Assembly: GCF_964355755.1 (NCBI RefSeq)
Contig: NC_092671.1
Span: forward strand, 39,635,304-39,699,303
From: Antedon mediterranea
Lineage: Eukaryota; Echinodermata; Crinoidea; Comatulida; Antedonidae
Reading direction: 5' to 3'
Length of the DNA stretch: 64,000 bases
The notes under the pieces are model-generated. The model did no database searches. It was not told where the DNA came from and saw nothing but the letters and a program-made list of their open reading frames with translations. The position numbers were made by a program, and so were the translations under genes. This document shows, one piece after another, positions 3 through 61,100 of the stretch (within the stretch, counting starts at the first letter, position 1; every line of letters starts with the position of its first letter).

Positions 3-1214
3 CATGTACAACATTATCATCATGTCCTGCATAGACACGTCCACCGAAACGTGTTCAAGAATGCTTACGTAAATCATAGACGTAACGTCATTCATCGTCA
101 TCACGTTCGACATGTCCGTCATTTCCATCACGCCGTACATAGACATATTAACAGGCATGTTCAAACACACAAAAATGTATATCACAGGCGAAACATTCGC
201 CACAACAAAAACATACGTCATGTGACCCATCACCATCATGCCAGGCACGTGCACCATCATCGAGTGTTGGTATCTCACCGTAACGTCAGCCACCGACGAA
301 ACGTCATCCATCGACACATCGTTCGACATGTCCAACACTTGCATCACGTGTTACACAAATACCATCATCGAAACTTGGTTAGCCATGTGAATGTAAGCCA
401 TCGAAGAAATATCAGACATCGTCATCATGTACGTCACGTTCGTCATTACCATCACGTTGTACACGTACATCATCACCGACATTTACACCGTAACATCAAC
501 GTGAACCACCGACGTAACGTTATACATCGTCGCCGCGTTAACCATGTTCGACATTACCATCATATAGTAAACGTACACGGACACCGCAGTGTCAGCAGTC
601 ACGTGAAGGTAAACCATCGAAAAAACATTCACCTACATCGTACCATTACGCATGCTAAACATTTCCACCAGGTGTTACACCGACACACTCACATAACACG
701 ACATCATCACGTGAACGTCAACCATCGACGTAACATCAAGCATAGACACAACGTCCGTCATGTTCGACATTACCACCATGTATTGCACAGACATCGTCAT
801 ATCGTGAAGCAACATCACCGAAACGTATACCATCGACGAAACGTGCATCACCATTACCACAAAAGCCATGTCCATCATTACCATCGCTCCTTCCACAGGC
901 ATCTTCACCGTAATGTGCATACCCAGGTTCACGTGACCCACAACCGCAACGTTGCACATCACCACCACCTGCGTCACGTTCATCATTACCATCACGTAAT
1001 AAATAGGCACCAACATAAGAATGTGTCCACACATGCCCATGTGAGTCATCATAGACACGTGCGCCATAACACTCACGTGAGTCATTCGCACCATATTTAC
1101 CATCGTCTGACAAGGTATAGCAAACGTGTGTTACATCACCATCGAAACGTTTATCACAGTCGTAACGTACAACATAACAGGCACGTAAGCCATACGCACC
1201 ACCACCACCACTAA
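3..1214 (+). CDS. Histidine/arginine-rich 36-residue-repeat protein, 3' part
   Basis: The frame is open from the left window edge to TAA at 1212-1214 (403 codons), so the true start, and possibly a signal peptide, lies outside. The protein is a chain of about ten 36-residue units plus a partial last one. Each unit begins with a V-x-H-R-R-N-V/I motif, followed by alternating His such as RHVRHYHHVLHRH. I see no Asp, Glu, Cys, Trp or Pro, almost no Gly and one frame over the whole length, so it is strongly basic. Between units, His (CAT/CAC) and Arg (AGA/CGA/CGT) codons vary while the residues stay, which argues for selection on the protein rather than a fresh DNA satellite. The protein ends in five His. 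I recognise no family. His density suggests metal binding or pH-dependent charge; this is inference. Opposite-strand open frames at 675-1239 are shadows of this repeat. Confidence 0.72.
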   Translation, partial: HVQHYHHVLHRHVHRNVFKNAYVNHRRNVIHRHHVRHVRHFHHAVHRHINRHVQTHKNVYHRRNIRHNKNIRHVTHHHHARHVHHHRVLVSHRNVSHRRNVIHRHIVRHVQHLHHVLHKYHHRNLVSHVNVSHRRNIRHRHHVRHVRHYHHVVHVHHHRHLHRNINVNHRRNVIHRRRVNHVRHYHHIVNVHGHRSVSSHVKVNHRKNIHLHRTITHAKHFHQVLHRHTHITRHHHVNVNHRRNIKHRHNVRHVRHYHHVLHRHRHIVKQHHRNVYHRRNVHHHYHKSHVHHYHRSFHRHLHRNVHTQVHVTHNRNVAHHHHLRHVHHYHHVINRHQHKNVSTHAHVSHHRHVRHNTHVSHSHHIYHRLTRYSKRVLHHHRNVYHSRNVQHNRHVSHTHHHHH

Positions 1215-1291: not shown

Positions 1292-2291
1292 CTTATAGAA
1301 ATTGAACATTTCTATACATTATTTAAAGTAAATCTAATAATTAAAACCTCGTTCACATGCGATTATCATAATACGAATGCATTTATTCAATTCTATTTGG
1401 AATATCTGTCTCTTCAATGTGATTAAAATTGACATTCTGTGATATTATTCAGATAGAGAGAGGAAAATTAAATGTCATAAACGTTATTGCATATTTGTGG
1501 CTTATTTTCTATTCCTGATGTTTCTTGTGTCTTCTTTTTTCTTTCTTGACTACGTGAATAAGATTAAGAGGTTAAAATGATAAATAAATCACACGTCACA
1601 AATAAGAATTATTTTTTTCATGGATGCATTATCTTTGATATACTATTATTTTGTTTATTAATTTATATTGAATATACTGAATATGTTATACATAGGCCTA
1701 TTACCGTTAAAAAATGTCGTGCTATAAATAGACCAAAATAGATCTTGAGGCAACAATGAACCAACCAAGTCAGTTAATTATGCATACCATACCAAATAGT
1801 AGGACAATTAGAAATGTCCCGAACGGCGCCCCGTACCGGACATTAACATGCAGAAATGACGCAATTCATCTTTCGGTAATTAGAATTACTGAAACTAATA
1901 TTAAAAAAAGTAAAAGTAAAACTTGAATTACTGAAGACTCGGACATCTCTGATTATTTAAATATATTTTGTATATACGCATCTGAGAAATGACAAAAACA
2001 GTAAAAATACAAAATACAGAACTAGAAAAACGACGATGGAAAGATATCTTAAGCTGATAGCAACGCCAGTCAATGCGTATGACAACTTCTCTAGATCATT
2101 TCAAACAATGATTAATCAATTCTTTCAAATCAAGCTAAAATATCACAATCACCTTGGCTAACCGAATCGATTGCCATGAAAATAAACTAAGTCAAAAGTA
2201 AGTAAATATACAACCGCTTCTAATTGTCTTTGCATGCAAAATTGAAGATACAATAACTATAGTGACAGAATATAAACGAGGAAAACAACAA

Positions 2292-4989: not shown

Positions 4990-5847
4990 TCAAAATTCAT
5001 CATGATAATAATCGTCATGGTCATCATGATCGTGATCTGGATGATCATCATCGTCATAATGATGATAATGATGCACTTCGTGTGGGTGAGTATCGTTATG
5101 GTGCATGTAGTCGTGGTCTGGATGGGTTTCGTTGCCACCGTAGTAATGGTAATGGTGTATTTCATGGTGTGGATACGGGTGTGTTTCATTGTACATGTGG
5201 TGATCATCTGGGTACTCATGCGTGTCGTTGTACATGTGGTCGTCGTGGTGATAGTCATCGGGGTGGCCATAGTGATGGATGTCATGGTGATCATCTGGAT
5301 GGATGTCATGGTGATCATCTGGATGGATGTCATGGTGATCATCTGGATGGATGTCATGGTGATCATCTGGATGGATGTCATGGTGATCATCCGGATGGAT
5401 GTCATGGTGATCATCTGGATGAATGTCATGGTGATCATCTGGGTGGATGTCATGGTGATCTAGATCATGATGGTCATCAGGATGTAGATGGTCGTCTGGA
5501 TGAATATCATGATGATCGTCGTCATGGTGATCATCTGGATGGCCATCGTGATCATCGTGATGATCGTCGTCATGGTGATCATCCGGGTGGCCATCGTCAT
5601 GGTTATCATCAGGATGCGCATTAGCCGGTTTTGCGTTCTTCTGCGGCTTTTCTACAGCAGCCTTGTCAACATCATCGTCATCATCTACAGCTTCCACATT
5701 CACGCCATCGTCATCATCTTGGGCGGCTTTAACATTATCGTCTGCTGCTGTGTTCTGCGACGTCTCTCTTCTTGGTACTGCTTCACAACTCACAATGATG
5801 ACAAGTAAAATGCAACCAAACAAGATATTTCGTTTCACTAACTCCAT
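4990..5847 (-). CDS. Secreted aspartate/histidine-rich repeat glycoprotein
   Basis: The 285-residue protein starts at ATG 5847. Residues 1-23 are a typical signal peptide (basic MELVKR, hydrophobic core, likely cut after CEA). Residues 24-76 form an Ala/Asp/Lys spacer with D-runs. Residues 78-192 are Asp/His repeats including seven uninterrupted HHDIHPDD units. Residues 193-285 are His/Tyr/Asp-rich with four N-glycosylation sequons (NDT, NET, NET, NDT). The TGA stop is at 4990-4992. Directly upstream of the ATG the - strand reads TTTTTATTTGTTTTTCCAG, a strong 3' splice site, so a non-coding 5' exon is expected; a candidate ends at 6767. I recognise no family. Secretion, acidity and His density suggest divalent-metal binding (Zn, Cu, Ca) in an extracellular matrix, shell, skeleton or glue; this is inference. 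Other open frames over this repeat (4902-5624) are shadows. Confidence 0.82.
   Translation of the reverse strand: MELVKRNILFGCILLVIIVSCEAVPRRETSQNTAADDNVKAAQDDDDGVNVEAVDDDDDVDKAAVEKPQKNAKPANAHPDDNHDDGHPDDHHDDDHHDDHDGHPDDHHDDDHHDIHPDDHLHPDDHHDLDHHDIHPDDHHDIHPDDHHDIHPDDHHDIHPDDHHDIHPDDHHDIHPDDHHDIHPDDHHDIHHYGHPDDYHHDDHMYNDTHEYPDDHHMYNETHPYPHHEIHHYHYYGGNETHPDHDYMHHNDTHPHEVHHYHHYDDDDHPDHDHDDHDDYYHDEF
5276..5462 (-). repeat. 24-bp coding tandem repeat (HHDIHPDD units)
   Basis: About seven nearly identical 24-bp copies of GATGTCATGGTGATCATCTG plus GATG, differing only by single bases. The near identity contrasts with the diverged flanking His/Asp codons and indicates recent expansion, so copy number is probably polymorphic. 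Confidence 0.85.
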
Positions 5848-5848
5848 T

Positions 5849-6767
5849 CTGGAAAAACAAATAAAAAATGTTGTCTAATTACACACATTCTACAAGTATA
5901 TCGTATGTAAATTGGCGATGTAAATGCTGGAATTAATTATACACAACTCTCTTAAACATTCACACAGGAATAATATTAAATTTTATTAACATTATTCCCA
6001 CAAAATTATTTTTAAATGTATTCGACGAATTGTTAGAATAATGATTGATAATCGCCGACAAAAAAACTAAAAGTAGCCATGTGTCATATGACGTCAGACT
6101 TTAGTTAACAACCAGCAACTGTTTTCTGCCACGTGCATAAGAATTCTGCAATTTTAAAAATTGTAAAATTAAAAGCAGTCTCTTTTTTTCCTGCTCAATC
6201 GGTCCATGGAAAAATAATTTGAATCAAAGTAAATTGTAGCCCATACATTATTGTTAAAACTGAGAGAAGTCTTTTCCGGTTGGCGGTTCACCTTGGAGAA
6301 ATAAAATAATTAAAATCTCGGGAACAGTATTTCTCAATTGGGTCGGCCTGGCAGTTAATAAATAATATTAAAACATTTTAAAACTATGGAAGAAAGTAGT
6401 TTAGTTGAATGAATTCTTTTTCTTAAAATTTAATCAAATGGGTTTATTAATGACTTCCTGTATTACATGTAAATTTCCGCTTGTTTAATGAATTACGATT
6501 ATTGTGATTTGATATAATTAATAGGTCAGGCCGAAAAGGTGCTACTAATTACGAATTATAAACTAATTATAGAAAGACTAGTTCTTCTAAAGCGTGGAAA
6601 GTTAAATAATTTAATTATGAAAAAGATATTATTACCGGTAAGCCTATTTTGTGTGGTGCACGATGTTAAACGTTGCACAAATTGTTTTTTTAAAAGAAGA
6701 AAAAAAAGCACGAACAAATCGAATGGCAATAGAAAAAACACAGAAAAAATATATCTTTATACTTACA
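5849..6767 (-). other. Probable 5' UTR intron of the Asp/His-rich gene
   Basis: On the - strand a good donor (ATAAT|GTAAGTATAAAG, exon end 6767) and the strong acceptor just before the start codon (intron end 5849) define a possible 919-bp intron. No coding signal is seen inside. Open frames at 6539-6898 lack support. Confidence 0.45.
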
Positions 6768-18600: not shown

Positions 18601-19780
18601 TCCACAATACCACGATCCTTTGCGGCAGTAACCTCCCAGTTGCGCGCGCAGCTCTTTTATTGCCTTTATAAAAACGATGAATAGAGATCGAATGCATGAA
18701 TACCAACCACAAAATTTGAGCGGGTGCTGAACTTTTATTGAATTTTTAAGTATCGAACACATTGTAATGAAACAATCATTAATCCCTGCATTAATGTGTT
18801 GTTTTAGAAATATTTTGCTATTATAAATTATTTTGTATTATTTATGATTAGCCTGATGGTGTTGTTTTGATTATTATACCTCTTTGTTTTTTATTTTATT
18901 GTCCACTCATCAGTAAAGTTAGACGGAACATTAAAAACGTACGTAATTAGTTCCAAATAATAAATCATTCATAAATATTAAATATAAATTTTTTTTATAC
19001 AATATTATTATTATTAGTATTATTATTATTTAGGGCAAGGCAGCAGTTTAGTTTAAAACTTTTATAATTTTTTTATATTTTCAGGAAGTTTAGTCTACTA
19101 AATAAAACTTATTTTTGGCCTAAAAAAGAGAACACTGAATAATGAATATACCACGCCCACCTCCCACGTGACCCTCAAAATAAAATTTGTCATTAGGGCT
19201 TTAATATAACGATATAGACCTATTGTACATGTGTGTTGATGGGAGCATGTACACAAAATTACTTTTTTCAATTTTTTTTTTCACTTTCAACTTGGTTTTG
19301 ATCAAAATTACTTCATGGAGATTTTATCCTGCAACTGTCGCTCTTCCTTGAAAAGTTGGTACTTACTACATTTTTTCCAAACTCAAAATTGAAAGGACAT
19401 GAAATCTGACTGAAAGAACTTATTTTTTATTATTTAAATCATTAATAAATATTACTTCTCTTTACAACTTTATCTAACATTGTCATAAACTGCGAACTGT
19501 GCAATTACCTTTATGTAAATTTTAAGAAAATGCATTTTATAAAAAATTGAATCATCGCATTGAGTGAAGGCAACACCTTCTTGATCAAGGCTATAATAAA
19601 AATAGGCGGAGGACTAGGTAAAGTAAACAAATGCAGTGGGACCAAGAAAAAAACATTCTTGTGGATGCTAGCCATCAGTAGCTAGTACGGTCCGAGCTAC
19701 GGCACTTATTCTAGCAACTTTTTAGTTCGCTAGAATCTTACTTTACAGAAGGGCGACTGGTTTTGTATCCAGTAAATGTT

Positions 19781-20018
19781 GACAGCCTTCCAAACCCCAT
19801 GATTTAGATATACTGTAATGATAGCCTTCCGAACCCCAGGATTTATATACTGTTATGATAGCCTTCCAAACCCAAGATTTAGATATACTGTAATGATAGT
19901 CTTCCAAACCCCAGGATTTAGATATACTGCAATGATAGGCCTTCCAAACCCCAGGATTTAGATATTAGATATACTGCAATGATAGCCTTCCAAACCCCAG
20001 GATTTAGATACTGCAATG
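19781..20018. repeat. Minisatellite, about 39-bp unit, six copies
   Basis: The unit is GATAGCCTTCCAAACCCCAG plus GATTTAGATATACTGTAAT. Copies differ by small deletions, and one has an extra TTAGATA. Confidence 0.85.
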
Positions 20019-24127: not shown

Positions 24128-27100
24128 CTTGAAAATAATATGTAAAATAAACATATAATATAAAATCCAATTTTTTTCAGATTATATTTCATTTCCACAG
24201 GTGCATAAGCATAAATATTAATATCCTATACATTTTAGCCAGAAACTTTTTTCAGCAATAATACTACAGAGGTCCCAGTAAACAATAATTAAAAATTATA
24301 TAGAGGGCGCTATATAAGCTAATATTAAGTTATACCAAAAATATCGAGCATACATCACCTGGGATACTAGAATAATTAGAAAGTGTAAAATGAGAAAATC
24401 TAAGAGTGTCACAACTAAGTTTCTAAAGAAAGTGTAATGTGTACCTTTACAGGCTTCTTCATTGTCTTCTGGTTTCTCAACATTATGTTGATCAATATCA
24501 TGATATTCACCATCTATTGCACTCTTTATCACATCTTTTTGTTTCTCTTTTCTTGTTAATAGTCTGCCGTCATGTTCTCCATTGACAAGATTCAACAAAG
24601 TGAATTCTTTATCGGAGTTCTCCAGTCGTTCTGACAAGAAAACTGCTTTTATGTGCTCTACTTTGCTAATAGTTTCAAGTCCAGCAGATTTAACATTCCT
24701 GTTTTTATCAGTAGGATTAATGTTCAAGTTACATTTATTGCCATCTAATTCAGTAGTAACACTTATCCTGGTATCTTTTTCTTCGTCCAGAACTATTTCT
24801 ACACTTTCTTTTTTTGATATTTCTTTTTCTCCAATTTTGTGTACTACTATATCGGTCGCTGATATATCTTTATTAACTTCCACATTCGAAATTTCCGAAT
24901 TTTGATCAACATTATCGTGACAACACTCATCATTAGTAACAGCAGGGTTTGGAGTTGATGTTTCATCTTGTTTTTCATCCATATTGACTTCTAAAACCAC
25001 TTGTTCAGTAACATTACCGGTGTCTATTAAAGAAGTTGTTTCATTAACTTTAACATCAGTTTCAAACATGGAATTTGGAAGATCAACATGCAACGTTTTC
25101 TCTTGTTTAATTTTTTGGATGGATTGAACATCGGCTTTTCTCTCTTTTTGCAAAGATTGACCGGTTATTGTTTCCAATTCAGACTGGGGTGATTGTAGAC
25201 ATTTAGCGGATTCCACAATATTTGGTTTCTCTTTTGTATTGTTCATTTCATTATTACACTCTGTAATTATTTCTAGGTTACTACTTTCAACATTGGAAGT
25301 ATTCTTTTCTACTTTTAATTCCCCTTTATGCTGGCTTTCTACATTATCTTGCACTAAGTTTCTATTAAGTTGCACAATATCATCAAGGTTTGTATCTACA
25401 TTTTGTCTAATCACAGCAATAGGTGAATCTTCAACTTCCATAGCCTCTGGTTTGTCATCTTTCTTCTCAGTACTAGGCAACTGATTAGTCAAGCCACAAG
25501 TTGCTTTATCATTTACAGTTTTATCATCTTTGCAATTCTGATTGTCATTTGATTGTTCTTCACTTGTTGGTTTTGAATATATTACACTTTGTGTTTCCAA
25601 GTTTGAAGCACCAATAATTTTATCATCACAGTTCGGAAGATCACATGGGTTAATACTTTTATCTGATATTGATGATTCAATTACTTGGTGTGAAGATGTT
25701 TCTTCCACATTAACAACCATGTCAGCGTTTTCTCTATGCATCAACTCAACAGATTCTTGAGATATTTTGTGTATGTGAACGGTTTGAGGCAAATCATTTA
25801 AATTTTCAGTCTTTGTAGCCTCTTCCAGAATTCTACCATCATCAGGTGTTTCAATGCAGACTGTACTTGGTGGAATAATTTCTGTTTCTTTGATGGTTTT
25901 TTCTACATCAGAATTTCCATTTTCAATATTACTAATACCAGAAGATGGGTGTTCAGAAGTGGTTTCCGTTGATGTTTTTTCATCCATATTAACCAGATTA
26001 CTCCGAGATAAAGTTGTGCAAGGTAAAGTAGGATTTGATGATGTAATTCTTTCACTTTCATTGGGACAGATTGGAGTAGTCATATCGGATTCCATATCAC
26101 ATTTATTATGTACCGTTGATTCAATTTTTGGTGAATTACCTGTGTTGCTTATTAACTGAATTTCAGTTGTTGTATTGCTTTCAATAGAATCAGAAGAAAA
26201 ACAGGCGGTGGAATTGGTTGATGTTGATTCAGTTAACACAGATGCTGGCATTGAGAACTCACAGCTGCTAGTTCCAGAAGGAATCCTTTCTTGGTCATCT
26301 TCATCAGATTTATACAAACCGAGATGAGAATTATTACCATCATCACTTACTATTGCATCACTAACATTATCTTTGGGTAGCAGTGTAACCTCTGACAGAC
26401 GATCACCTTTGTCAATATCACAATCAATTGAATCATTAATTGCATTGCAGTCTACAGTTTGTTCATTTCTGATTTCTGTAGCTGTTTCCTTATTATTAGG
26501 GGGAATAATTATTTTCTCATCAGCTATACTATGACTACAAAGTGGTTCAGAAGAAAGTGGTTCAGAAGAAAGGGGTAGGGTAATGGTGCTTTCACATACA
26601 GTTCTTTGGTTCTTCTCTTCTTCAACTAAAACCTGAGCCTTATTTTCAACAATAGTACTTTTAAAATTGTCATCACCAGCAATAACCACATCCTCATCTA
26701 GTAAATGACTGCTTGGAACTTCATTGGACGGTAAACTTGAGAGCTCTGACACGGCTCCTGTTTCTATTGATGATGTTGGTATTGTTATTGCTAGGTCTTC
26801 ACTTTGGTCTGTTAAACTTGAAGGTTGAACATCAAAACTTTCAATTTTGCAATTATCACTTTTAAGGTTTTCTGACGGAACCAAATTATCATTGTTATTT
26901 GAAATGGTTGAGACCTCAACTGGCAAACTAGATGTTGATTCTGTCTTTTCTTGTTCAGATGCAATTATGATTTTCATGTTAGTACCCGAGGCATCAATCA
27001 CAGCTTTATAAATAGTTTCAGTTGCTGTTGTAACACTTTTCTCCGCTTCTTTCAATAACTTCCGTTCTCTTTCAATTTCTTTTTCTTTCTCTTTTCTCAT

Positions 27101-30022
27101 AGCAAGAATATCTTTTACTTTCTGTGGACCTGTGCGGTTAACACCCTTAACACTTTTCTTAATACTACTAGACTGCCTGCCAGGAGATTTTCTTCTATTT
27201 GGACGAGACATATTGCTACCAATAGGAGTGGTTTGTAGATCAACAGACAACATGGGATTGGGTATATGTTGAAATCCCACTCCGGGAGGTCCAATCTGCG
27301 ATGGCCCGCTACCTTGTTGGAGCATGTTTTGTAGCATTGATGGATGCATATGAGGTCCAATACTGTGATTTCCTCCTGGAAGCATATGTGGTCCAAAACC
27401 CATTCTTTGTTGATGTTGAAAGTTGACAAAACTCTGTTGCATGTTCTTCATATTCATCTCTGCCAACCACTCTTTAGTTGATTTTTCTGATAAACTTGGT
27501 AAAGATGCGTTTCTATGAAGCACTATATTTGAAGGCATTTGGTGCTGTGGAGGTATAGTTCCTGGGGGAAAGTTGCTAAAGTTGTTGTACATTCCACCAA
27601 CAACAGGATTGAATCCGGCTGGAACCGGATTAACCATGGAAGATTGGTTTTTCATCATTGAAAGATACATCTCTTGATCACGCTGTACTTGAACCTGATG
27701 AATCATGTGATCGTACTGAACTGTCTTGGTTTCATTTGCCATATTTGTTTTAGAGGCACCTCCAACTGTTACTGTTGTAGTGTTACTGACGTCGTGTACA
27801 GTAGATGTAATTTTAATTTCATGATTTAGGGTCACAGGTGAAGTATTTGAATTTAAATTTGATTCGTTTGACACGCCACTTTCATCTAATTTAGGTTTTT
27901 TTGGAGAAGATTCACTTGATGTGTTTACTTGAACAGAGTCAGTATTTTGGGTTCTTTTAAGAACCAAATGTTCCTTACTATTTGTGCTATCCTCTCCAGA
28001 TTGTAAATTCTTGGCAACATTAGTAAGGCAGTCATTTGACGTAGGTCTTGTTAAATCACAACAGTCACTAACATCCTCTTTGCAAATTTGCATTTTTGTC
28101 TTATGTCCATCTTTAAGTAAAGGCACTGAATTTGGCTGATTTGGAACAGTTCTTATCTGATTGCTTAAGATTTTGTCGGTTGGAATAGTAGTTACTTGTT
28201 CAGCTATTTGAGCTCTCGCAGCTGCTGTTAATAAGGTGCTGGCAGGAAAAGAAGTTATCATTGATTGTTCAAGAACAGGTAAAGCCAGTTTCTTTGTGTT
28301 AGTGTCAGCGGACAAATTCTGAATAGGAACTTGCGGCGGATAGAATTGACCTTCAGCTTGAGTAAACGTCATTCCTCTTCTTAAATGATTAGGGTGGTTT
28401 TCATGAATTGTTCTGTGTCTAACATGAGACTCTCCTGCTTGTATAAATGATGGTACATGTCCAGGCATTTGGTGCACTTGTTTTCCATGCAAAAACTGAG
28501 GATTAGTTTTATAATGTATATTAGGAAAACACGATCCAGGCGAAATGTTTGGTGGTAACATATTACTTGGGAGTGGAACAACACCGGGAAAGATGCCACC
28601 ATTTGGGCCAACAACCAATTCATGATGAACGCCCGGTGTTGGAATATGCTGAGGAATTCCTTGCATGGATAGCGGCGAGTCTCCTGTATTATAGCCATTC
28701 AGTTTTTCCATAGTCCTTGCAGCTAATAATGCATCAAATGCTATATCTCCAGCTAACTGATTAGGTGTTTGTATAGGAAAATTCTGTATTCCAGGGTTAT
28801 TCATTTCATGGAATTGTGTTGTCATCAAGTTTGGTGTATTGTAATGTCTGCTTGCAGTAAATGAGTCCATAGATGGTAAAGGACCGGACATATTGTCACC
28901 TTGTTGCATTGCAAACAATTTTGAAACTGATAAACTTGGTGATGGTTGACAGGGTGAAACTTTTGCTTTCGTACGTGAACGTTTGGTACCTGAAAGAAAA
29001 ATATAAATTACTATTGCTTTATATTTTAATATACATTAGTGTACCTATCATTACATTGAAACTTGAGGAAATTATTTTCACATTCACAATGCTCTCTTTT
29101 GACAAACTGAGAAAGTGCAATATTTAAATTCCTTTTTGACAAATGAACTGTCAAAATGAGTTATCATACCGTACTATTCCTGTCTGTTACAATTGGAAAT
29201 TAATGTTTACTCTTTAGTAGTTAACTATAAACGCAACTAGTAGTATTACTATTAGTAATTCAGCAGGCCTTGTCTTTTTAAAATTGTAGGTGTGCTACAA
29301 ATTGCACTCCTCAATACATTCAGGGATGCTGTAGGTGTGCCATTGTATTTTGGTGTGTAGAAGTTTACCAAATTTAAGTGTATTGTAAATCCCACTTCTC
29401 AAGGGCAGTTTAGGAGTGTGTTAGGTGAGTGATCGCACTCGCTCACCTCAGAAGAAAAGGCCTGATTCAGGTGTACTTACCTTTTGGACTTGCCTTACAA
29501 TCTATTTTGCTGCTGTCATGCTCATTATCCAGATCAGCCAGAAGTGACGCCATGGCGATAACTTTCCGTTTGTGATTGCATAATTTAGTTAAATCACTGT
29601 CTCTAATTACATCCTCTGCCAATCTCACTTTAGCCGTAACTTTGCAATCGAAGTTGAAAACCTTATCAACTATCAGAGGACATTGTAGGCCGCATTTACA
29701 CGTTCCCTCGGTTGCTAAGTATGCTTTGATCTCTGGGATGCTTGTCAGCTTAAATCCGCTGGAGCTAGAGAAAGTAAAAAAATATACTGTAGGTTACAGA
29801 AAAAGAAACAGAATACTATAGCTGTGTTGACCTAAAAAAGGTACTGTAATAGACATAATTTGTACTGTGTGCTAAACTATAGTAAATGTAGGTTACGATT
29901 ACTTACCTAAAATAGGTAACCACACCATTCTGGAGCTCCCTTCTCCAACCTATAGGCACAATACATGTCATTCCCACATTGTCCTCTTCTATGGTTCCTC
30001 CAGGCTGCACACCTGCAGCCAT
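21304..30022 (-). CDS. MBD5: MBD5/MBD6 orthologue (MBD + PWWP), complete coding region, 7 exons
   Basis: Exons: 30022-29907, 29764-29481, 28989-24445, 24127-23955, 23648-23536, 23186-23111, 21372-21304. The sum is 5376 nt (1791 aa plus stop) with all phases closing. The N-terminus VPIGWRRELQNGV...GTCKCGLQCPLI..KVFNFD matches the MBD of human MBD5. The C-terminus GDLVWGQIRGCASWPGKVV, WVKWFGDHTFTQVEPDKL and LEIAIQEAMTELDKK matches its PWWP region almost residue for residue, and the last exon is a basic tail (NRNRKRKAR), as in human (KRRKISR). In vertebrates MBD5/6 do not bind methyl-CpG specifically; they sit on heterochromatin and associate with the PR-DUB (BAP1-ASXL) deubiquitinase through the MBD. 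The start codon was chosen as the first in-frame ATG before the MBD; an acceptor-like CTACTGCAG precedes it, so 5' UTR exons are likely. Confidence 0.95.
24445..28989 (-). CDS. MBD5: MBD5/6 giant exon 3 (4545 nt), mostly disordered
   Basis: The single exon encodes 1515 residues rich in Ser, Thr, Asn, Glu and, in its first part, Pro/Met/His (GGMYNNFSNFPPGTIPPQH). Three ordered-looking islands stand out: ASTLLTAAARAQIAEQ (about 28197-28253), a basic charged helix VKDILAMRKEKEKEIERER (about 27040-27120) and TETIYKAVIDASGTNMKIII (about 26965-27027). The first and third match recalled human MBD5 segments (ASSLLSAAAKAQLANQ, DAIYKAVVDAASKGMQVVI). The remaining acidic S/T-rich 900 residues have no counterpart I recognise. 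Confidence 0.92.
29291..29463. repeat. Dispersed 173-bp repeat, copy 2
   Basis: It matches 10434-10607 over its length (TGTGCTACAAATTGCACTCC to GAGTGATCGCACTCGCTCAC then AAGGCCTG) with scattered substitutions. It ends 17 bp from the donor of MBD5/6 exon 2. Confidence 0.72.
29481..30022 (-). CDS. MBD5: MBD5/6 exons 1-2: methyl-CpG-binding-like domain
   Basis: Residues 1-134. The MBD spans about 22-78, with PIGWRRELQ, GVVTYFSSSGFKL, EIKAYLATEGTCKCGLQCPL and KVFNFD. The Cys cluster CKCGLQC, specific to MBD5/6 rather than MeCP2/MBD1-4, is intact. RLAEDV and DLTKLCNHKRKVIAMASL downstream also match MBD5. The intron splits the domain after TYF. Confidence 0.94.
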
Positions 30023-35026: not shown

Positions 35027-37102
35027 TTACTGAATAATTTTCAAAGCCTTTGCATAGGTTTCTTGCATCTTTGCTGCAAATCGCTGCAGAATAAAAAAGA
35101 AAGATTTATGTTACAAGAAGAATTAACAATAATCATGATACTTTAGTTTGCTATTAAGACCTAAGCTCTATCTACACTATCAAAGTAGTTTGACAAAACA
35201 ATATGGAAGTGATATACCCAAATATGGTAGTGATATGCTTAAATATGGAAGTGATATGCTTAAATATGGAAGTGATATGCTTAAATATGGTAGTGATATG
35301 CTTAAATATGGAAGTGATATGCTTAAATATGGTAGTGATATGCTTAAATATGGAAGTGATATGCTTAAATATGGTAGTGATATGCTTAAATATGGTAGTG
35401 ATATGCTTAAATATGGTAGTGATATGCTTAAATATGGAAGTGATATGCTTAAATATGGAAGTGATATACTTAAATATGGTAGTGATATGCTTAAATATGG
35501 AAGTGATATGCTTAAATATGGAAGTGATATGCTTAAATATGGTAGTGATATGCTTAAATATGGAAGTGATATACTTAAATATGGTAGTGATATGCTTAAA
35601 TATGGAAGTGATATGCTTAAATATGGAAGTGATATGCTTAAATATGGTAGTGATATGCTTAAATAAGGTAGTGATATGATCTCATGTCCGTATATGGGCA
35701 CATCACATTTTTGTCACATAAAGTGTGATAGTATAGACAGAGGTTAAGTCTGTAAGAGCTTCTAATCAGAGGCATATAGCAACTAACTACTGTGTAGGAT
35801 ACAATAAACTACAAAACGGCCATAACTATATATTGCAGACTATTTATTGTATACATTATCCTACATTGATGTATGAATACTCACCCTTCCGCGTTCTCTG
35901 TCTTTGTCTGCTATCAACACCACCTTCCCTTGTGGTCCCTTGCCTTTCATCAGATTTGCAATTTTCAGCGGACGGCCAAGCGGTCCTCGTTTCACGGGTT
36001 GTTCTTGCTCCTGAAATATTGAAAATAATTTTATTACAAAAATATTTTGTGTAACTGACAAAACCAAGTATTACAACAAAATTAATATAGACACAATCAT
36101 TAGTTGTTCTTAACATATATAGGTAAGGTAAAGGTCCTGTGTTCAATTCTGAACATAGGGTAATGAGCTGTTAGGAGCTCATTTGACAAGACTCGGCATC
36201 ATGTGCCAGGGTGGCCAATTCCTTTCCACTTTGTATACGTATAGACATTTATAAAACAAACTTGAACATGCATTTATATTTAATCATAAACATTTGCCAG
36301 CTACAATAATGAGGTGTTTACATAGAGGATAATTAGTACATCTACGGTTTTGCATACCTTTGGTATCACCTGGATTCCTTTATCCGTAAGTACAGGTGGC
36401 TCTTTTAGTTCTTTCCATGGATGTTGCCAAGCAACGTTCCATCCTCCAAGAACATCTTGTTTTACAAGATATATAACACGTCTGTAACAATTAAAACGTA
36501 TTAAATAAAATAAAATGAAAACTCCTTTTTGGTATTAGAAATTATTTGGCATTATATATCAAGCAAGTATGTGTTACTATTGGTTTCAGTATACATGTTA
36601 TATATTCTTTGATGTGATAGTATCTAACCAACGGAATGGAATTCGATACAATATTTATGACACCTTACAAAAACAACAGCCTCTATACTAAGGTAAAAAT
36701 AACTAAAGCTCTGTCTACACTATCAAATTTTATGTGACAAAAAATGCTCAAATGTTGTAGAGATATGACATCATCATGTCCATTTATAGGAACATCACAA
36801 TTTTTTGTCACAAAAAGTTTGATAGTGTAGACAGGGCTTTAGATAGAATACGATATTTGAAAGGCAATTGTTCTATTCCAGTCAACATGATGTTATACCT
36901 GTCAGTTAGAACAATAACACAATCCTTCATGACTTGAAGATGGTCTACGTAGTCATCTGTCAGTGCAAATTTTCCTTTATCAATTTCTTGCAGTAAAGCA
37001 TTACCAGTGGCTTCATACAGCACATAAGGTCTCACTACATTATCAGGGTGTAGGAACCGTGCAGGTCGCAGCTTCTTCACCTCAGTGGACACCTCTGTTG
37101 CC
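35027..37102 (-). CDS. VPS13A/C: VPS13 C-terminal PH-like domain exons
   Basis: Four exons: [20 protein letters not shown] (37102-36899), [19 protein letters not shown] (36481-36358), a basic loop [20 protein letters not shown] (36010-35885) and the final helix [18 protein letters not shown] (35083-35027, TAA at 35029-35027). The layout fits the VPS13 PH-like fold, but the loop between 36010 and 35885 is more basic and less conserved than the human one. The last intron (35084-35884) contains the expanded MITE satellite. Confidence 0.88.
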
Positions 37103-40100: not shown

Positions 40101-43100
40101 TTTTACTTTTATTTTTTATTTATTTTTAATTCAAAGTTAGAACTTACTTCCTTCCCTTCAATTTCTGTATCTGGTTGTAAATAATGTATAAAATTACTCA
40201 AGAAGCCTTGATCTAACTTGACATGCATTTCTTGGATTAAGACCTGGAATATCTTAATCTGTTGCACATTGCTATGCTCAGCATATCCCATAAGGAGACT
40301 CATCTCAATCATTGGCTTCAATGCTGTCAAGGAAAATGTGTATTTGCAATAAATTTCAACACCAGAAAATAATATACAAATGATTAATGTTTATGAGTGC
40401 GATGGTACAAATAATAAATGTTTATGATTGTGATGGTACAAATAATAAATGTTTATGAGTGTGATGGTACAAATAATGAATGTTTATGAGTGTGATGGTA
40501 CAAATAATGAATGTTTATGAGTGTGATGGTACAACTAATGAATGTTAATGAGTGCGATGGTACAAATAATGAATGTATATGAGTCCGATGGTACAAATAA
40601 GGAATGTATATGAGTGCGATGGTACAAACAATGAATGTTTATGAGTGCGATGGTACAAATAATGAATGTATATGAGTGCGATGGTACAAATAATGAATGT
40701 TTATGAGTGCGATGGTACAAATAATGAATATTTATGAGGGCGATGGTACAAATAATGAATGTTTATGAGTGCGATGGTACAAATAATGAATGTTTATGAG
40801 TGCGATGGTACAAATAATTTCAAGAGATGATGATGAAAGGTTATATTTTCATGACTACTGTACAGTTCAGACAAGAAGGTCAGGGTTTCAGTAGGTATAC
40901 AAAAGATTTATTAGTTATAATTTTGTTTTCAAGACAAAAGTTTTGCTATTTGAAACAAATATTTGACTGAAGATTTTCACAAACTGTCAGAAAAAGCATA
41001 TATGTGCAATTTGAAGGTGGATTAAAACAATATAATAAACCATTAATTAATTGATTAACACGATGGTAGAAGAAAGCATTTGAAAAGAGTAAAATAGACT
41101 GACCATTTTCAGTTGCTACACTCTTTGGTGGCGGAATAGGAGCAAGCACCGTTGAGAATATGGGTGTCTTTGTTTGGTTGTCCATCTGAATTCGGTGGGT
41201 TTTGAGGTGAAACTGGAACTGATGAGGAGATGTTCTCACTTGGGCCCAGACACCTGGATGGTGGGTACGTTTGATGTGGTGTCGCTTGGGATTGTACATT
41301 ACAAGGTTTTCAAAATCCATCTAAAGATATGGTAAATATAATCCATATAGAATTAAAAAAGGAAGGCTAATCAGTACGGATTTTGAGTGAACACAAAATT
41401 AGAGTCTGTCTACACAATCAAACTTTATTTGAACAAAATTGTGATGTGCCCATATATGGACACGATGATCATATCACTACCATATTTGGGTATATCACAC
41501 TTTTTTTGTCAAACTAGTTTGATAGAGTAGACAGAGCTTTACATGTACTATATTAAATAAGTATTATATGTAGTAATAATGACCTCCATGTTTCCAGCTT
41601 TGTATATCGCAGGTGGTGCATTCTTATCCAATTGCTGTTCAGCTTCATACTTCTGATATTCTGCTTCTATCTGTTGAACTTGACCTCCAGCCAAATCACG
41701 GAAACGTCGTCTCTGCTTTGCTTGCCATATAATTCCAGAACTACCGTATATATAAAAAAAATAAATAAAAGCCACATCTGATTTTACAATAGCAAAATAT
41801 GAAAACAAAATAGTAAATTGTTTAAATAAAAGGTAAATAAAAGTATACCTTGTAATTCCAATGTATGCCACTTCAGTTCGTGTGTAGTTGTTGACCATTG
41901 AAAGACCCACACCCTCCAAACTGAGATTTAACTCTAAGCTTACTTGTTCCAATTCGCCAGCCTAAATATTAGAATAACATTAGTACTGTAGTAAACAATT
42001 AATACAAACAGTTAAAACATGAGCCTTTAAATTAGGTCCATTGTTAAACATTGTTTTGGACTTTCTATAAAATATGAAAATACCTGCTGAGCTTTGGTAG
42101 CAATGACAATATCTTCAGTAAACAAGAGAACACGTTGTCTGCCATCCAAGAATGACACCCAGTACAGTTTGGCTTTCTTGTTTGTGGTAATCTTAATCTC
42201 ACCAATACCATCCTAATAGTTTAAACAATCAATAAGTAGAATATATGAAAACATAGTGTAAGATTGGGGAGCACAGTACATGCACAAAATATGACACAAT
42301 TAGGCGCAGAGTCAACCAGTTGACACAAGTGATGTAAACAGGGTAGAGACTAGCTGCCATAAGGTCAATTTACACAGAAAAGTGGTAACAGTAACACAAA
42401 TATAGAATCTATGATCTTATGACCATTTATACACAACGCGGAGCGAACGTGTGGTTTTTCGCTCAGGATAGATACAGATTCTACGTGGGACGAGCTACGG
42501 TTTTCCGCTTATGTTACTGCTTGTCTGTGTAAATCGGCCTATATTGTAAGGTCCTTTTCTAGCAGTTGATGCTCTAGTAAATCATACAACCCATTTGGAA
42601 TGCACACAACAACCAAATTAGTGGTAATTCAATATAGAAATCAGTGGTATGATGAGTTTACCTTGACCAGGTCATTCTTGAGGGTTTTATCAGCAACCTT
42701 GAGCACAAGTTGTCTGTCTTTGGTTGGTACTTGCCATGTGTATAGAATGCACTCATTAGGGCCTAGGCTTGATTCATCATTCACACCTCTGTAATAACAC
42801 AAATATACATTTCCGATGTGTTACAAAAAACAGTCAAAAACCAACAGGATATTATTGAAGAAGTGATATTCACTTTATTTCTAAAAACATTGAACAGCAA
42901 TAATAAACCTACGCTTAGATGGTGGCGCTGTTTTAGCTATGAGAAGAACGGTATAATGAGTGGATATGAATCCAGGACTCTGATTGCTCATCAAGCAACC
43001 ACAGACCTATGATACAACTACTATCAAATTGTCAGCCTTAAGCTCTATCTACACTATCAAACTAGTTTATCCAAAAAAAGTGTGATATGCCAAAATATGG

Positions 43101-46100
43101 TAGTGATATGCCCAAATATGGTAGTGATATGACATCATATGTCCATACATGGGCACATGACACTCTTTTGTCACATAAAGTTTGATAGTGTAGACAGAGC
43201 TTTATACTTTGAAAAATATGTGAACAAATAGTTAATACAAAAGGAATAACTTACTGTTGATTGTATTTGACATCATAATCTGTAGTGTTTACAAGTTTGA
43301 CTGTAAAATTACCCTGTTTGAAGCCATGGATAGCAACTACCTTAGCAGTCTCTGTTAGCTGCGTTTCTGCCGTTATGCCTCCAACCTGTAATGAATCAAT
43401 CCAAGTAGGATTAAGTCTAGTCTAAGGTCTAGACAGACAGATTTTGGCAAAGATGGCATGTCATAACTATTATACATGAGCTGGTGACAGGCTACGTAAA
43501 AAGAAATAACCCAAGTCTAAAGAAAGTTAAATTAATTCGTTTTAAAAACATTATGTAATGTTAATCTATAGATGGTACTGTATGTATAAAATGTCACCCT
43601 CTTTGTTGTACAAGGGAAGTAAATTAGTGTGTAATTTCAATCTTTCCTGGTTGTACATTGTTGTACAGATTAAGAAGGAAAGCTTCATTTGATAAACAAT
43701 GTAGATTGTAGATATTAGATAGATATTAGGTGTGATAAAACATTTGTGTGTGTTGTCCTTACCTCCTCCATCTTGAGGACTGTGGTGTGAGGGTCTGTAA
43801 ACAGGAACGGTTCAGAGAACTGCTTTTGACCCTTTAGTTTGACTACAAGTGTTCGCTGGTTTGTATGGTCAACTGGCCAGAAAGGAATACACTGTAAAAT
43901 ACATTATGTGATTAAAATCATAGACGATCAAAATAATGAAAGCACTCATAAACTGTGAAGTACTTGGCAAAATATTGCCACAGAGGGTGCATGTTGATAT
44001 TTCGGCTCCTGTTAAAAGAATACAGATTCTTTTTTTTTTATTTCTGAAGTTATCAATGAACCAATTTTCTTTACTGTCAATATGCATGTTCTGTAAGTAA
44101 TTACACCAAAATATTCAGAACGATAATTTGAAAATTGTAGGCACTATCAGGCTAACAAACCAACAAACAAATAAGTAATAATAATATACTTAATTCTATA
44201 ATAATACTATACAAAATGTTATTTTCAAGTTATTAATGCAGGGTGTGGTTGTATTGTAAGATAGGATACACTAGTGATGTAGATGACATACCTGTCCAGT
44301 AGGGACATCATACTGTAAGTGATCTGAACCACCAGACTCTCTACACACAATGTCATGCTCTGAATGGTTGACAAGCAGGTACTCTGGTGTGAACACGATG
44401 ATCTTAGTCAATCCAAAGTTACTGAATTGATTCTTCACTCCAATCTGAAATTAAAACAATAATAATTCAGTATATTTCATACTAAAATTTTAATGATTGT
44501 TTTTGAAAGTATAAAGCCCGGTCTACACTATCAAACTGTATGTGACAAACAAATGTGATGTGCCCATATATGGACATGATGATGTCATATCACTACCATA
44601 TCTGCGAATATCACTATCATATTTGGGCACATCACGGACGGAACTTTAAATGGATCATTTTAATAATGTTTTTGTTTTTAAAAGCATTATACTTCATGCA
44701 CTCTGTGAAGATGGGCTCAATCTATACAAGAACATTACCATCAAGTCAGTCACTAAAATAATAAAAATCTTACATTGTAATTCTGTCCTTTTCCACTACA
44801 TGTGATGAACCCTGAACTACCAACAGTGTCCAGCGAGAATTTATCTGACCATTCAGAGTCACATATTTGCATTGTGATCTAGAAAATGATTATAAAATAC
44901 AGTTTTTATATAGTTCTTATTGCTAAACTTAAATAATTATATGGGCTTAAATTTAAAAAAAACCTAAAAAGATCCTAAAAGATCTTGCGAGATGTAAAGC
45001 CCCGTCTACACTATAAAACTTTATGCGACAAAAAAATGTGATGTGCCCATATATGGACATGATGATGTAATAGCACCACCGTATTTGGGCACATCACACT
45101 TTTTGACACTAGCTTGATAGTGTAGACAGCGCTTTAAGCCTATTAAGATATCTTTCATACAGTAGAAATAACAAAGTTATTACAAATTAGTCTTCTGTTC
45201 TAGAAGGTCTAGTCTATGTAGCAGTTACTCATTTTTACTAATGATGTTAGTATAATACTAGTGATATTCTTTAGTTTATTCTAATATAACATTTTGCTTA
45301 AGAGTTTGCTGTAAGAATAGAAGGTAAACAAATTAAATTAATCAATTTTTCTAAACTGTTAACCAAGAAATAAAATGTTAAGTCAGATTAGCAGATATAG
45401 TTCATAAAATATTGTACCAGTTAAAAGCCATCATAAAGTTTTATATAAAAATATTTTTAGCAATTTTTAGAATGAGATACTAAAATTTAAAAAGATAAAT
45501 GAATTAGAATTGATATAGCCAGAATAGAACTTTAAACCTATGTTTAAAGTCTATGTTTAAACCTACTGTTAAGATGTTAGCCCTTGTACCAATAAAATAT
45601 GTTACAGTATTTATTGTCAGAATGTAACATCCACCAAATTAATCAAATTTTAAAACTAATAAGGTCTTATCATCAGAGTATATAGGATTTTATAACAATT
45701 ATTATAAAATATAAAGATGTATTGTCCCTTTGACTAATTTCAAAAAAATAAATATTTCGAAAAAAAGTGGGTCATTTTGAAGCATTGAGGTATTTATACC
45801 TCCATGTTTGAAGCATGGAGGTATCCATGTTTGAAGTATCATAATAGTTATTAACTTTCACAAAAAAATCGAAAAAAAAACACGTTTTTTTGTTCAAAAA
45901 ATAACTTTGACTGCCAGTCAAAGTTTTCGATCAAAACATATCTCATAATGCAACGCGCTTGTTTGGCTACTCTGTATGCATAATCATAAAACTTCCTCGC
46001 GATCTGTGTGAAAACACCTTCTCAACCGTGACGAGTTGTAAACAATTCTAATTAGCATCATGCATAATGCATACTCGTGGTTTGAAATCTTTGTTTACTT

Positions 46101-58100: not shown

Positions 58101-61100
58101 TTTGAATACAGTATTTTCATTGCAAAATTGTTCAGTTCTTTGGTGAACATACCGATCTAAGTTTGCCTTTTCTATTTTCAACAAGGTAAGGACAAGCATT
58201 GATGGAGACTTGAGAGAATCCACCATTGATTGACATCAGGTCAGCATTCATGCGTAATCTCATGTCACCAAAACTCTGAAAATTAAAATGTAAGATATTG
58301 GGATGAAAAAAATACATAATCAAGACAATTTTTTGAACGATTTTACAGCAAATTAAATTATTCCCTGGATGACCAATTTTTTTCTGAAAATGTATAAAGG
58401 TCTGTCTACACTATCAAAAGTTATGTGACAAAAAAATGTGTGCCCATATATTGACATGATGATGTCATATTACTACCATATATAAGCATATTACTACCAT
58501 ATATAAGCATATCACTACCATATTTGAGCACTCAAACTAGTTTGATAGTGTAGACAGAGCTTAAGGACAACATCTGTACACAGGTCTTCATAAGTCTTTA
58601 TTACAGCTAAATATAAATCCAATAATACAGGTAAATAGTCAAATGCTTATCCCAATGGCTGCCTGTACAAATAAACATAAATATTTAAGCTCTGTTTACA
58701 CTATCAAACTAGTTTGATAAAAAATGTGTGATTTGTCCAAATATGGAAGTGATATTCTTAAATATGGTAGTGAAATGACATCATCATGTCCATACAGTAT
58801 ATGGGCTCATCACATTTTTTTTTGTCACATAAAGTTTGATAGTGTAGACAGAGCTTTATATTGTAAACTTACTCTCATGACTAAACAATTAGTGTCCTTG
58901 CGACTTGAATCAGCAACAAGAATAATCTCTGGATTCTCAACTTTCAGATGTAGCGACAAATCTAGCGTCGTTGGTGCGGCTGACTTGTTATTGTCTGCTA
59001 CATTCTCTAACTTTTTTTTCTTACTTTCTGCAGACTGGCCGTCTTCGAGACCCTTCAGGAATATTTGAGATACTGTCATCAAGAATTCTACGCATACGCA
59101 GGTCTGTACGTCATTGAATCCAACCACAACTGAAAGAAACAACAATTTTATATTATTTGGTGTATGTATGTATGGGTATAATGAGTCACAGTGACCTAGG
59201 TCGCTTTTGTTTTTCCTTTTATTTTTGTTTTGTTCAAATAAATAAATGAAATGATGAGCGATTAGAAAAACTGCAATTTGATATTATTTGGTAATTTTTG
59301 TAAAATACAGATTATAATGGTTTATCGGAAAAAGTGTGTGCAACATGGTGGGAAGGATTTGGGAGCAAACGTCACGATGCATACGTACGTGATTTGTAGT
59401 TTGTTCGTACGCGTATTTTGCTCCCAAACCCTTCCCATCAAGCTATTTGCGATAAACCTTATGTTTAAAAACTTACTTGCTAGTGCAGTACTTACTTATA
59501 ACACTTCCGTTGCTACGTTGATCTACCTTGACAACCATCATCTGACTTTCTTCATCTGACTTAGCTTGTCTTCCAAACATTCTGCACAATCATATACAAA
59601 ACCCGTATACATTAAATCAAAATGATGAAGGCTATTCTCAAATAAACAATGGGAGTTTTGTTTTCAACCTGGTGTTAATCAAAATGCTACTTTTAAGAAT
59701 TAGATTTGACCTCACTCGGGCATAAATAATAATAATGCGACATTTATATAGCACTATTTCGTAAAGATCAGAGCGCTTTGAGTATTTTTTAGACTCCGAG
59801 AAGGAAATAGGACAAAGACAACCCATTAATGACAACAAAAAAACAACAAAGATGATTCAAACACCACCGCACTGTTCCCCCGCAATTACCTTCTCAACAA
59901 CTGTGAATAAGTGAAAGAATATAGAATGCTTAAATAAACTCAGTTTCCTACCTCGTGACTCCATCTACTCTTTCAGGTCGTATATCATCTAAGACACAAT
60001 TAACAAGATGCATGTGTGCAGTCAGACTGCTATCAGTCAGCATGTCAGCTTCTACCTCCAAACCATGAACTGTCAGCCTACCAAGTCCCTCTGTAGCAGT
60101 CTGTACACCCTTACAAGTGGTCTAAAATAAACAAGTTATATCTATCACTTTAGTTCATAAAATGTATGTGATATATATACACAAACACAAGTCTAAAACA
60201 AATTGAAATATCAGACGCGCTTGGTTGTAAACGAGGTTTCCTTTTATGAACAAGGGACTACAATGTTCTGTGTACTATTGAATTAAACTTTACAAGCTAA
60301 AGCCTATCAAACTATATTATTGTGTAGTTATTATGCTGGTCAAATAAATAAACAAAACAAAACGCAACTTTATATGTTAATGGTTAAATACCTTCTGAAA
60401 GCTCTGTCTACACTATCAAACTAAAAAAAACTTTTTTTGTCCAACTAGTTTGATAGTTGCTTTAGGTGGCCCTTCAGAAGGTAAACAACACAATAACATA
60501 CGATACATATAAAAATGAAATGTGATGAAGAGCAGGGGCAGCTGAGGTAACTGTCTGTTTTCTCATACATGAAAGGACAATCACTTACTAAATTAATCTA
60601 TCTAAATGAAATGAAGTAATGCACTTACCAGGTCTGCTGACTTTTGGTACATGCTTACGCCAACAGACTCAATGGTAAAGTTAAGACTTAACTGACTTGA
60701 CACTTGCTTCTGGTCTCCACCTTCACTATCACGATCTGTAAATATACAAACAGTTTTTGCTTCAGGCTATTAAACAACAATATATACTTAAGTATATATT
60801 TAAGTTGTTCTCTCGCCAATGTTCTATATCTTAAGCTTTCTACATTATGACATTTTATGTGATGAAGTCATATCACTACCATATTTAAGCATACCACTAC
60901 AATATTTTGGGCACATCACACTTTTTGTCAAACTTATTTGACAGTGTAGACAGAGCTTTATGCATTAACATCCTCACAAAAAGTCTCTAAGAATTCAAAA
61001 TATACCTTTATCTTGTTTTTGTTTGTCTTTATCCTCATCTTCCAGTTGAGTGACCTCATCCGGGATTGTTTGACCCTCATTCAAGTTTTCATTGAGAACA

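Follow-up and report, generated by a model that had tools for sequence, protein, structure and literature searches.

A family of long His/Arg-rich repeat proteins with a strict 36-residue register in Antedon mediterranea, putative secreted structural polycations

Vertebrate histidine-rich glycoprotein combines cystatin domains with HHPHG repeats. The Cuvierian outer-layer adhesive proteins (COOLPs) of Holothuria leucospilota consist mostly of long tandem repeats, are predicted to be beta-rich and are described as having neither orthologues nor functional domains (PMC12472103). Squid HBPs are modular repeat proteins rich in His and Tyr, in which deprotonation of His is followed by Tyr contacts that lead to phase separation (PMC6884462). 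Glassin of glass sponges, with HX/HHX and HD repeats encoded in a single exon, is thought to scaffold mineral (PMC10282587).

The gene family compared here with these systems was noticed at the left end of a stretch of 64,000 nucleotides, C2:39635304-39699303, which we call the window; the genome searched comprised 354 Mb in 18 sequences. Window positions 3-1214 on the forward strand are open for 403 codons, followed by TAA. The first-pass annotation had described about 400 codons with an exact 36-residue periodicity, His at nearly every second or third position, no Asp or Glu, and synonymous variation between the units, and this description holds. The frame encodes 138 His (mean spacing 2.9), 64 Arg, 12 Lys, 0 Asp and 0 Glu. 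Its self-identity is 0.50, 0.49 and 0.49 at lags of 36, 72 and 108 residues; in 2000 shuffles, the best value at any of these three lags never exceeded 0.251. The variation between CAT and CAC and among AGA, CGA and CGT is real, as counted over the whole gene. Tandem Repeats Finder reported no array inside positions 3-1214, so the 108-bp, 36-residue repeat is visible at the protein level. The features at this end of the window are:

Window 3-1214, + strand: 3' end of gene G3, the last 403 codons (His/Arg units of 36 residues) and TAA; likely ATG outside the window
Window 69-1148, + strand: ten whole 36-residue (108-bp) units, in register and without indel
Window 1340-1590, + strand: candidate poly(A) signals (AATAAA/ATTAAA), 125, 207, 252 and 368 nt past the G3 stop

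The candidate poly(A) signals are no evidence on their own because the sequence is AT-rich. What the earlier picture of positions 3-1214 missed was the remainder of the gene and its relatives: a signal-peptide-like start, a propeptide, a second type of module and a gene family. The frame is the last 21% of a gene of 1875 codons, G3. Leftward extension, proposed earlier as a way to find the start and any signal peptide, gave an open frame of 1919 codons from stop to stop. Its likely ATG is at C2:39630890 (window position -4413, 4.4 kb left of the window) and would encode a protein of 1875 aa with a signal-peptide-like N terminus. A TATA-like element lies 787 nt and a donor AGGTAAG 674 nt upstream of this ATG, and an acceptor tttacag lies 4 nt before it. 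From these elements, without transcripts, we infer a gene model in which a non-coding first exon is followed by a single coding exon.

The predicted G3 protein starts with the signal-peptide-like stretch (residues ~1-21), followed by an acidic propeptide region (residues 25-77, pI 4.05, 11 acidic residues), seven Arg/Tyr/Trp modules of ~63 residues and 32 His/Arg units. The mature end was assumed at residue 78 and the domain borders were set by us. From residue 78 on, the protein has 1798 residues (232 kDa) with 375 Arg, 60 Lys, 372 His, 167 Tyr and one acidic residue, divided into an Arg/Tyr/Trp part of 611 residues and a His part of 1187 residues. The His part contains 208 Arg, three Gly and no Pro.

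We found no credible relative of the G3 family in Pfam-A or among the PDB sequences, in line with the earlier statement that no described family with this unit was known. The whole G3 protein matches no Pfam-A family over the curated cut-off and none up to E 1. Its Arg region matches Phage_tudor with 11.8 bits (cut-off 27). Among the open-licence PMC matches listed, no title or abstract opening concerned this repeat. By description the COOLPs are the nearest system, as G1-G4 (listed below) are also long tandem repeats without a known domain. This analogy is of moderate strength; membership is not shown and the sequences were not compared. In working principle the squid HBPs appear nearest, again with moderate strength, but membership is not shown and a defining feature is lacking: HBPs depend on GHGLY repeats, whereas the G3 His region has its three Gly in 1187 residues and many Arg, and Gly is absent from the consensus of the G1-G3 units. 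Histidine-rich glycoprotein differs in its domains, since G3 has no Pfam family up to E 1, and in its repeat, since the G3 His region lacks Pro.

Two paralogues, G1 and G2, lie within 30 kb upstream of G3, and a third, G4, lies 30 Mb away. G2 was found by reading the interval between G1 and G3. A search with the Arg part had listed G1 and not G2, which shows that relatives can escape searches of this type. When the query was the C-terminal part of G2, the matches included G4 and frames with the 63-residue module on C4 and C11. The coding spans are:

C2:39609127-39615636, + strand: G1
C2:39621226-39627816, - strand: G2
C2:39630890-39636517, + strand: G3
C2:9671638-9680265, - strand: G4, 2875 aa, with both module types
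C4:25051977-25057571: G5, a frame of 1850 aa with 65-residue modules

G1-G4 contain 21-31% His, 17-24% Arg+Lys and <1% acidic residues, with 0.0-0.1% acidic residues in mature G1-G3. An acidic stretch precedes the Arg-rich start in G1-G3 and in G5. A hydrophobic N-terminal stretch is present in six of six genes (best 10-residue Kyte-Doolittle mean 2.5-3.4; no control run). Secretion was judged from this hydrophobicity, and no signal-peptide program or experiment stands behind it. An alpha-amylase gene (C2:39601152-39603409) ends 5.7 kb before the G1 ATG, and its C-terminal part extends beyond the coverage of the PDB amylases listed. Further to the left, C2:39587129-39588500 is a long trinucleotide-type repeat with several frames open on both strands, one of them His/Gln-rich behind an FFCELGC-type stretch that recurs at 39605645; this is probably a repetitive element.

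G1, G2 and G3 share a short upstream region, TATATAAA followed after 24-25 bp by AGTT(A/T)TG(A/T)TAGAACTT. The donor AGGTAAG lies downstream of this motif in G2 and G3, and G1 has a donor-like CGGTAAGT (by eye). Blastn supports the motif between G1 and G2 (21 bp, 95%, E 3e-4); its matches of G1 or G2 to G3 fall outside the motif and give no support. The alignment of the G2 and G3 promoter regions scores 88.5 versus a maximum of 77.5 in 200 shuffles. The pattern built from G1-G3 has no further match in the genome, its three hits being there by construction, and its reversed control has 12 matches. Neither G4, G5 nor the neighbouring gene N, described below, was listed by this genome-wide pattern search. 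Support for a shared promoter motif in G1-G3 is therefore modest, and it comes from sequence comparison only. Acceptor-like sequences within 9 nt of the ATG were found in 5 of 6 genes (not in G5, by the pyrimidine rule); the background is 212 of 2782 window ATGs (7.6%).

The three clustered genes hold 26 copies of the ~63-residue module: seven in G3, nine in G1 and ten in G2. In G1 and G2 the modules flank the His array on both sides. The consensus of 22 of the 26 modules is xWRxGRLY...WRxVRYR.RHGRxYYY...W..V..Y..NGRxY...NGRY. Pfam-A scans of 22 of the 26 modules gave eight families with one member each, at a best E of 0.02. The short GRxYYY...W hairpin motif is reminiscent of WW domains, to which there are weak matches. 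However, these stay under the Pfam cut-off or at PDB E 0.03-0.8 and span 14-20 residues, whereas the module has ~63 residues and is strongly basic. Two G5-type modules as query gave at least 57 matches at E<=0.001 in at least 13 open frames; eight of these are on C4 and four on C11, and the remaining one is G2. Thus the module extends beyond G1-G4 to at least twelve open frames on two other chromosomes, and at least 16 frames carry family modules once G1, G3 and G4 are added. These counts are lower bounds, and three short neighbours near C4:25.066 Mb are perhaps one gene. Among the C4 and C11 frames, G5 was read whole and two others in part. G5 has 554 Arg, only 3.9% His and a Ser/Gly/His-rich tail, Ser/Gly-rich tails being present in G2, G5 and G6. 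Its modules are mostly 97-100% alike in protein, and in contrast to the old His arrays it has the appearance of an array that was homogenised recently.

Close to the G3 stop, the window contains a gene of a different composition, N, on the opposite strand:

Window 4990-5847, - strand: gene N, a single coding exon of 285 aa with a signal-peptide-like start and a His/Asp-rich polyanion
Window 5274-5460, - strand: tandem array in N with 7.8 copies of a 24-bp unit at 96% match, which encodes HPDDHHDI octads
Window 5779-5847, - strand: putative signal peptide of N, with an LxGCxLL-like core as in G1-G3 (similarity and cleavage by eye)
Window 5848-5862, - strand: splice-acceptor-like sequence ending one base before the N ATG, a layout as in G1-G4

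N contains 79 Asp, 11 Glu and 71 His and has a His/Asp flavour similar to that of glassin. It lacks the promoter motif of G1-G3. We propose that N pairs with the G1-G4 polycations, a proposal that rests only on its position, its signal-peptide core and its gene layout. Elsewhere, eight weak matches to N (26-42% identity) and one weak C10 match to G3 (18%, with one stop inside) were taken as compositional.

Further features of the window and the genome were recorded. The minus strand of window 36808-62583 carries exons of a VPS13-like lipid transfer protein, with VPS13_C over the Pfam cut-off and VPS13_VAB and VPS13_M just under it as single exons. A frame of 1579 codons at 24296-29035 (minus strand) has no Pfam match at E<=0.001; it is Ser/Thr/Asn-rich by eye and resembles an ordinary long exon. 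At 35200-35678 lies a 21-bp tandem repeat (22.8 copies, 94%) with several frames open (YGSDMLK), and similar-looking 21-bp arrays at 43082-43131, 44589-44635 and 58466-58530 make it probably a dispersed satellite. Other tandem arrays are a 31-bp one at 40375-40818 (14.3 copies) and a 39-bp one at 19780-20018. Outside the window, C9:6113010-6115877 is one open frame of 1124 aa with three creatine kinase domains, resembling the flagellar creatine kinase of sea urchins. In echinoderms, the arginine kinase is a descendant of creatine kinase. A pair of kinase exons on C10 is identical at 88 of 115 positions to the arginine kinase 3ju5 and at 75 of 114 to the creatine kinase 1i0e, which we take to be from sea cucumber and human. 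Two tektin exons are nearest to 8snb, which we take to be from sea urchin (290 vs 156 bits and 176 vs 138), with few invertebrates in PDB; a third matches best with tektin-3 of other PDB entries (207 bits vs 121 for 8snb). On these kinase and tektin matches an echinoderm is very probable as the source. PF14830 gave no match in the genome, which in the absence of a positive control speaks only weakly against a mollusc, and a search for COX1 found none.

The His arrays keep a strict register. They consist of 33, 34, 32 and 31 units of 36 residues in G1, G2, G3 and G4, 130 in total, and all 126 unit junctions are exactly 36 residues without an indel. For G1-G3 the units were chained over preset regions with gaps allowed at a small cost, and for G4 they were found with a G2 profile and a score threshold, by which weaker edge units may be missed. 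The unit resembles six hexads of the form hydrophobic-x-His-x-x-x, and a lag of 6 gives the top ring correlation within the unit in four of four proteins. In the shared phase, His occupies the third hexad position in 73, 94, 72 and 92% of cases in G1-G4 (hydrophobic <=5%), and the first position is hydrophobic in 47, 73, 79 and 78% (His <=4%). The unit phases were picked by the best correlation between proteins, which favours a common pattern. Of 5000 column permutations, 28, 1, 0 and 0 reached the observed value at lag 6 in G1-G4, and 625, 130, 5 and 46 reached it at any lag from 1 to 18. By these counts G3 and G4 show the hexad clearly and G2 less strongly, and G1 taken alone does not establish it.

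In a left-handed beta-helix, 36 residues would equal two turns of 18 residues, and the hexad with an aliphatic position and the top rank of lag 6 in all four proteins resemble this fold. The unit differs in having His at hexad position 3 and, by eye, no small residue two before the aliphatic one. No prediction in this analysis gives a solenoid fold in the 36-residue units. AlphaFold returned an all-helix model for the 403 residues alone (pLDDT 61, pTM 0.22) and a helix again for two units with five rows (pLDDT 65.5, pTM 0.33). Both models are of low confidence and too weak to use, and Foldseek with the two-unit model gave no matches. We did not adopt an alpha-helical rod, with 36 residues as ten turns of 3.6, as other harmonics exceed the 3.6 one in each of the four residue classes tested per protein.

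The regular His ladder would also suit a metal-binding or mineral-scaffolding matrix protein, with His as the ligand of Zn, Cu or Fe, or with the polycation as a template for mineral; glassin, His-rich as well, is a parallel (PMC10282587). Acidic calcium-binding residues are nearly absent from mature G1-G3, though, no Pfam domain exceeds its cut-off and there are no metal data. We consider such a matrix role improbable, if still worth keeping in mind.

The first-pass annotation had read the synonymous variation as protein-level selection on an old repeat, which dN/dS near 1 between units or the same 108-bp unit as a satellite elsewhere would have contradicted. Median dN/dS (NG86) between units is 0.25, 0.19 and 0.36 in G1, G2 and G3, well away from 1. 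These medians come only from the unsaturated, more alike pairs (22/528, 15/561 and 51/496), as synonymous sites are saturated in 506/528, 546/561 and 445/496 pairs. The five Arg modules of G3 give dN/dS of 0.08-0.32 in ten pairs. A DNA search of the genome with positions 3-1214, skipping simple repeats and very common words, gave six matches, all inside G3, which speaks against a satellite.

The comparison of G2 with G4 is the stronger evidence. G4 units match G2 units in order with an offset of two at a mean identity of 0.795 (31 units), while fifteen other offsets give 0.616-0.654. For the 26 colinear units the protein identity is 0.812, pN 0.108 and pS 0.955; as the latter is saturated, no dN/dS ratio can be given. 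In 936 codons the arrays differ at 151 first, 99 second and 474 third positions (16%, 11% and 51%), and this third-position excess supports the selection reading. With colinearity, 81% protein identity and saturated silent sites, single units are conserved, and the arrays have been without turnover since a duplication of sufficient age for silent sites to saturate. The four pairs G1-G2, G1-G4, G2-G3 and G1-G3 showed no such colinearity, in a comparison that did not include G3-G4.

It might be argued that the frame is non-functional, a decayed gene or a non-genic 108-bp satellite open by chance, as it is repeat DNA, antisense frames are partly open too and there are no RNA data. An open frame of 1875 codons, the signal-peptide-like starts, dN/dS well below 1 where measurable, the lack of DNA matches beyond G3 and colinear arrays 30 Mb apart with conserved protein and saturated silent sites leave next to no room for this. 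Together with the 67-136 stops that each shifted frame of G1-G5 carries, the dN/dS values, the G2/G4 conservation and the G3-only DNA matches (simple repeats and very common words skipped) led us to reject a satellite or pseudogene. Coding, register and selection are our main argument, made on the sequences themselves, that the G3 family, not found in the libraries searched, is a real and conserved protein family.

Another reading is a role in defence: as giant precursors or as intact polymers, the secreted polycations would bind and disrupt microbial membranes and be acid-activated by His. The extreme Arg/His/Trp content, the signal-peptide-like starts, possible basic cleavage sites past the propeptide and the multigene clusters could be explained in this way. 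By eye, however, no regular processing sites would free short peptides from the arrays. The exact register and the unit-wise conservation over 26 units favour an intact long chain, and the near-identical tandem modules of G5 look structural. A defence role is distinctly unlikely in our judgement.

Our preferred interpretation is that G3 and its relatives are structural polycations which the animal secretes, most likely as part of an adhesive, a coating or a gel. This is an evenly balanced judgement: secretion is inferred, and there are no expression, tissue or proteome data. The calculated charges of G1, G2, G3 and G4 are +975, +984, +788 and +1210 at pH 5 and +428, +364, +435 and +534 at pH 8.1, while that of N goes from about -6 to about -81. 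The values assume a His pKa of 6.3 and the mature ends and are calculated, not measured. The opposite swings of N and G1-G4 are the basis of the mechanism that we propose. The chains would be stored in acidic secretory granules with His protonated (about +790 to +1210). On release into seawater, His would deprotonate and the charge would drop to about +365 to +535, whereas N would swing the opposite way, from about -6 to about -81. The polycations could then condense with N and/or sulfated glycans by ion pairing and His/Tyr contacts into a solid or gel, possibly also cross-linked by metal or Tyr. The periodic His and hydrophobic positions may produce a regular fold whose register excludes indels.

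A pH switch would suit many roles and is a weak discriminator for the adhesive reading. Moreover, as G5 has so little His, the His switch is not common to the whole family. In favour of the material reading are the phase separation of the squid HBPs, the long tandem repeats of the COOLPs and the report that the adhesive material of sea stars and sea cucumbers contains sulfated polymers (PMC6262867). Against it, the same paper gives these polymers an anti-adhesive role in sea cucumbers. The adhesive protein fraction of Holothuria forskali is reported as acidic (PMC12472103), which, by analogy, does not fit a purely basic glue. Alternatively, the protein may serve only for packaging: it would condense polyanions, either sulfated or nucleic, inside secretory granules, in mucus or in egg coats and would bear no load itself. 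The net charge and the near-absence of acidic residues would be expected of such a protein, but packaging alone leaves the strict unit length, the Tyr/Trp modules and the Ser/Gly-rich tails unexplained, and we see only a slim chance for it.

Within the structural interpretation, a more specific version remains tentative and rather doubtful. It is a two-component, pH-switched secretion: in seawater the His/Arg polycations would lose charge and a His/Asp protein secreted with them would become more negative, release from the granule being enough to set the material. Such a system would rest on a new hydrophobic-x-His-x-x-x repeat and a new GRYY module in one cluster and, if true, would define a class of structural proteins not yet described in animals.

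The composition of G1-G4 at such a size is far outside that of usual proteins. As the identity of the units and the length of each one persisted through the saturation of silent sites, the arrays lend themselves to study as a precise periodic structure and not as disordered filler. If the family proves to be part of an echinoderm glue or coating, this would be a pH-switched material with a defined genetic basis, and its genes would be candidates for similar secretions.
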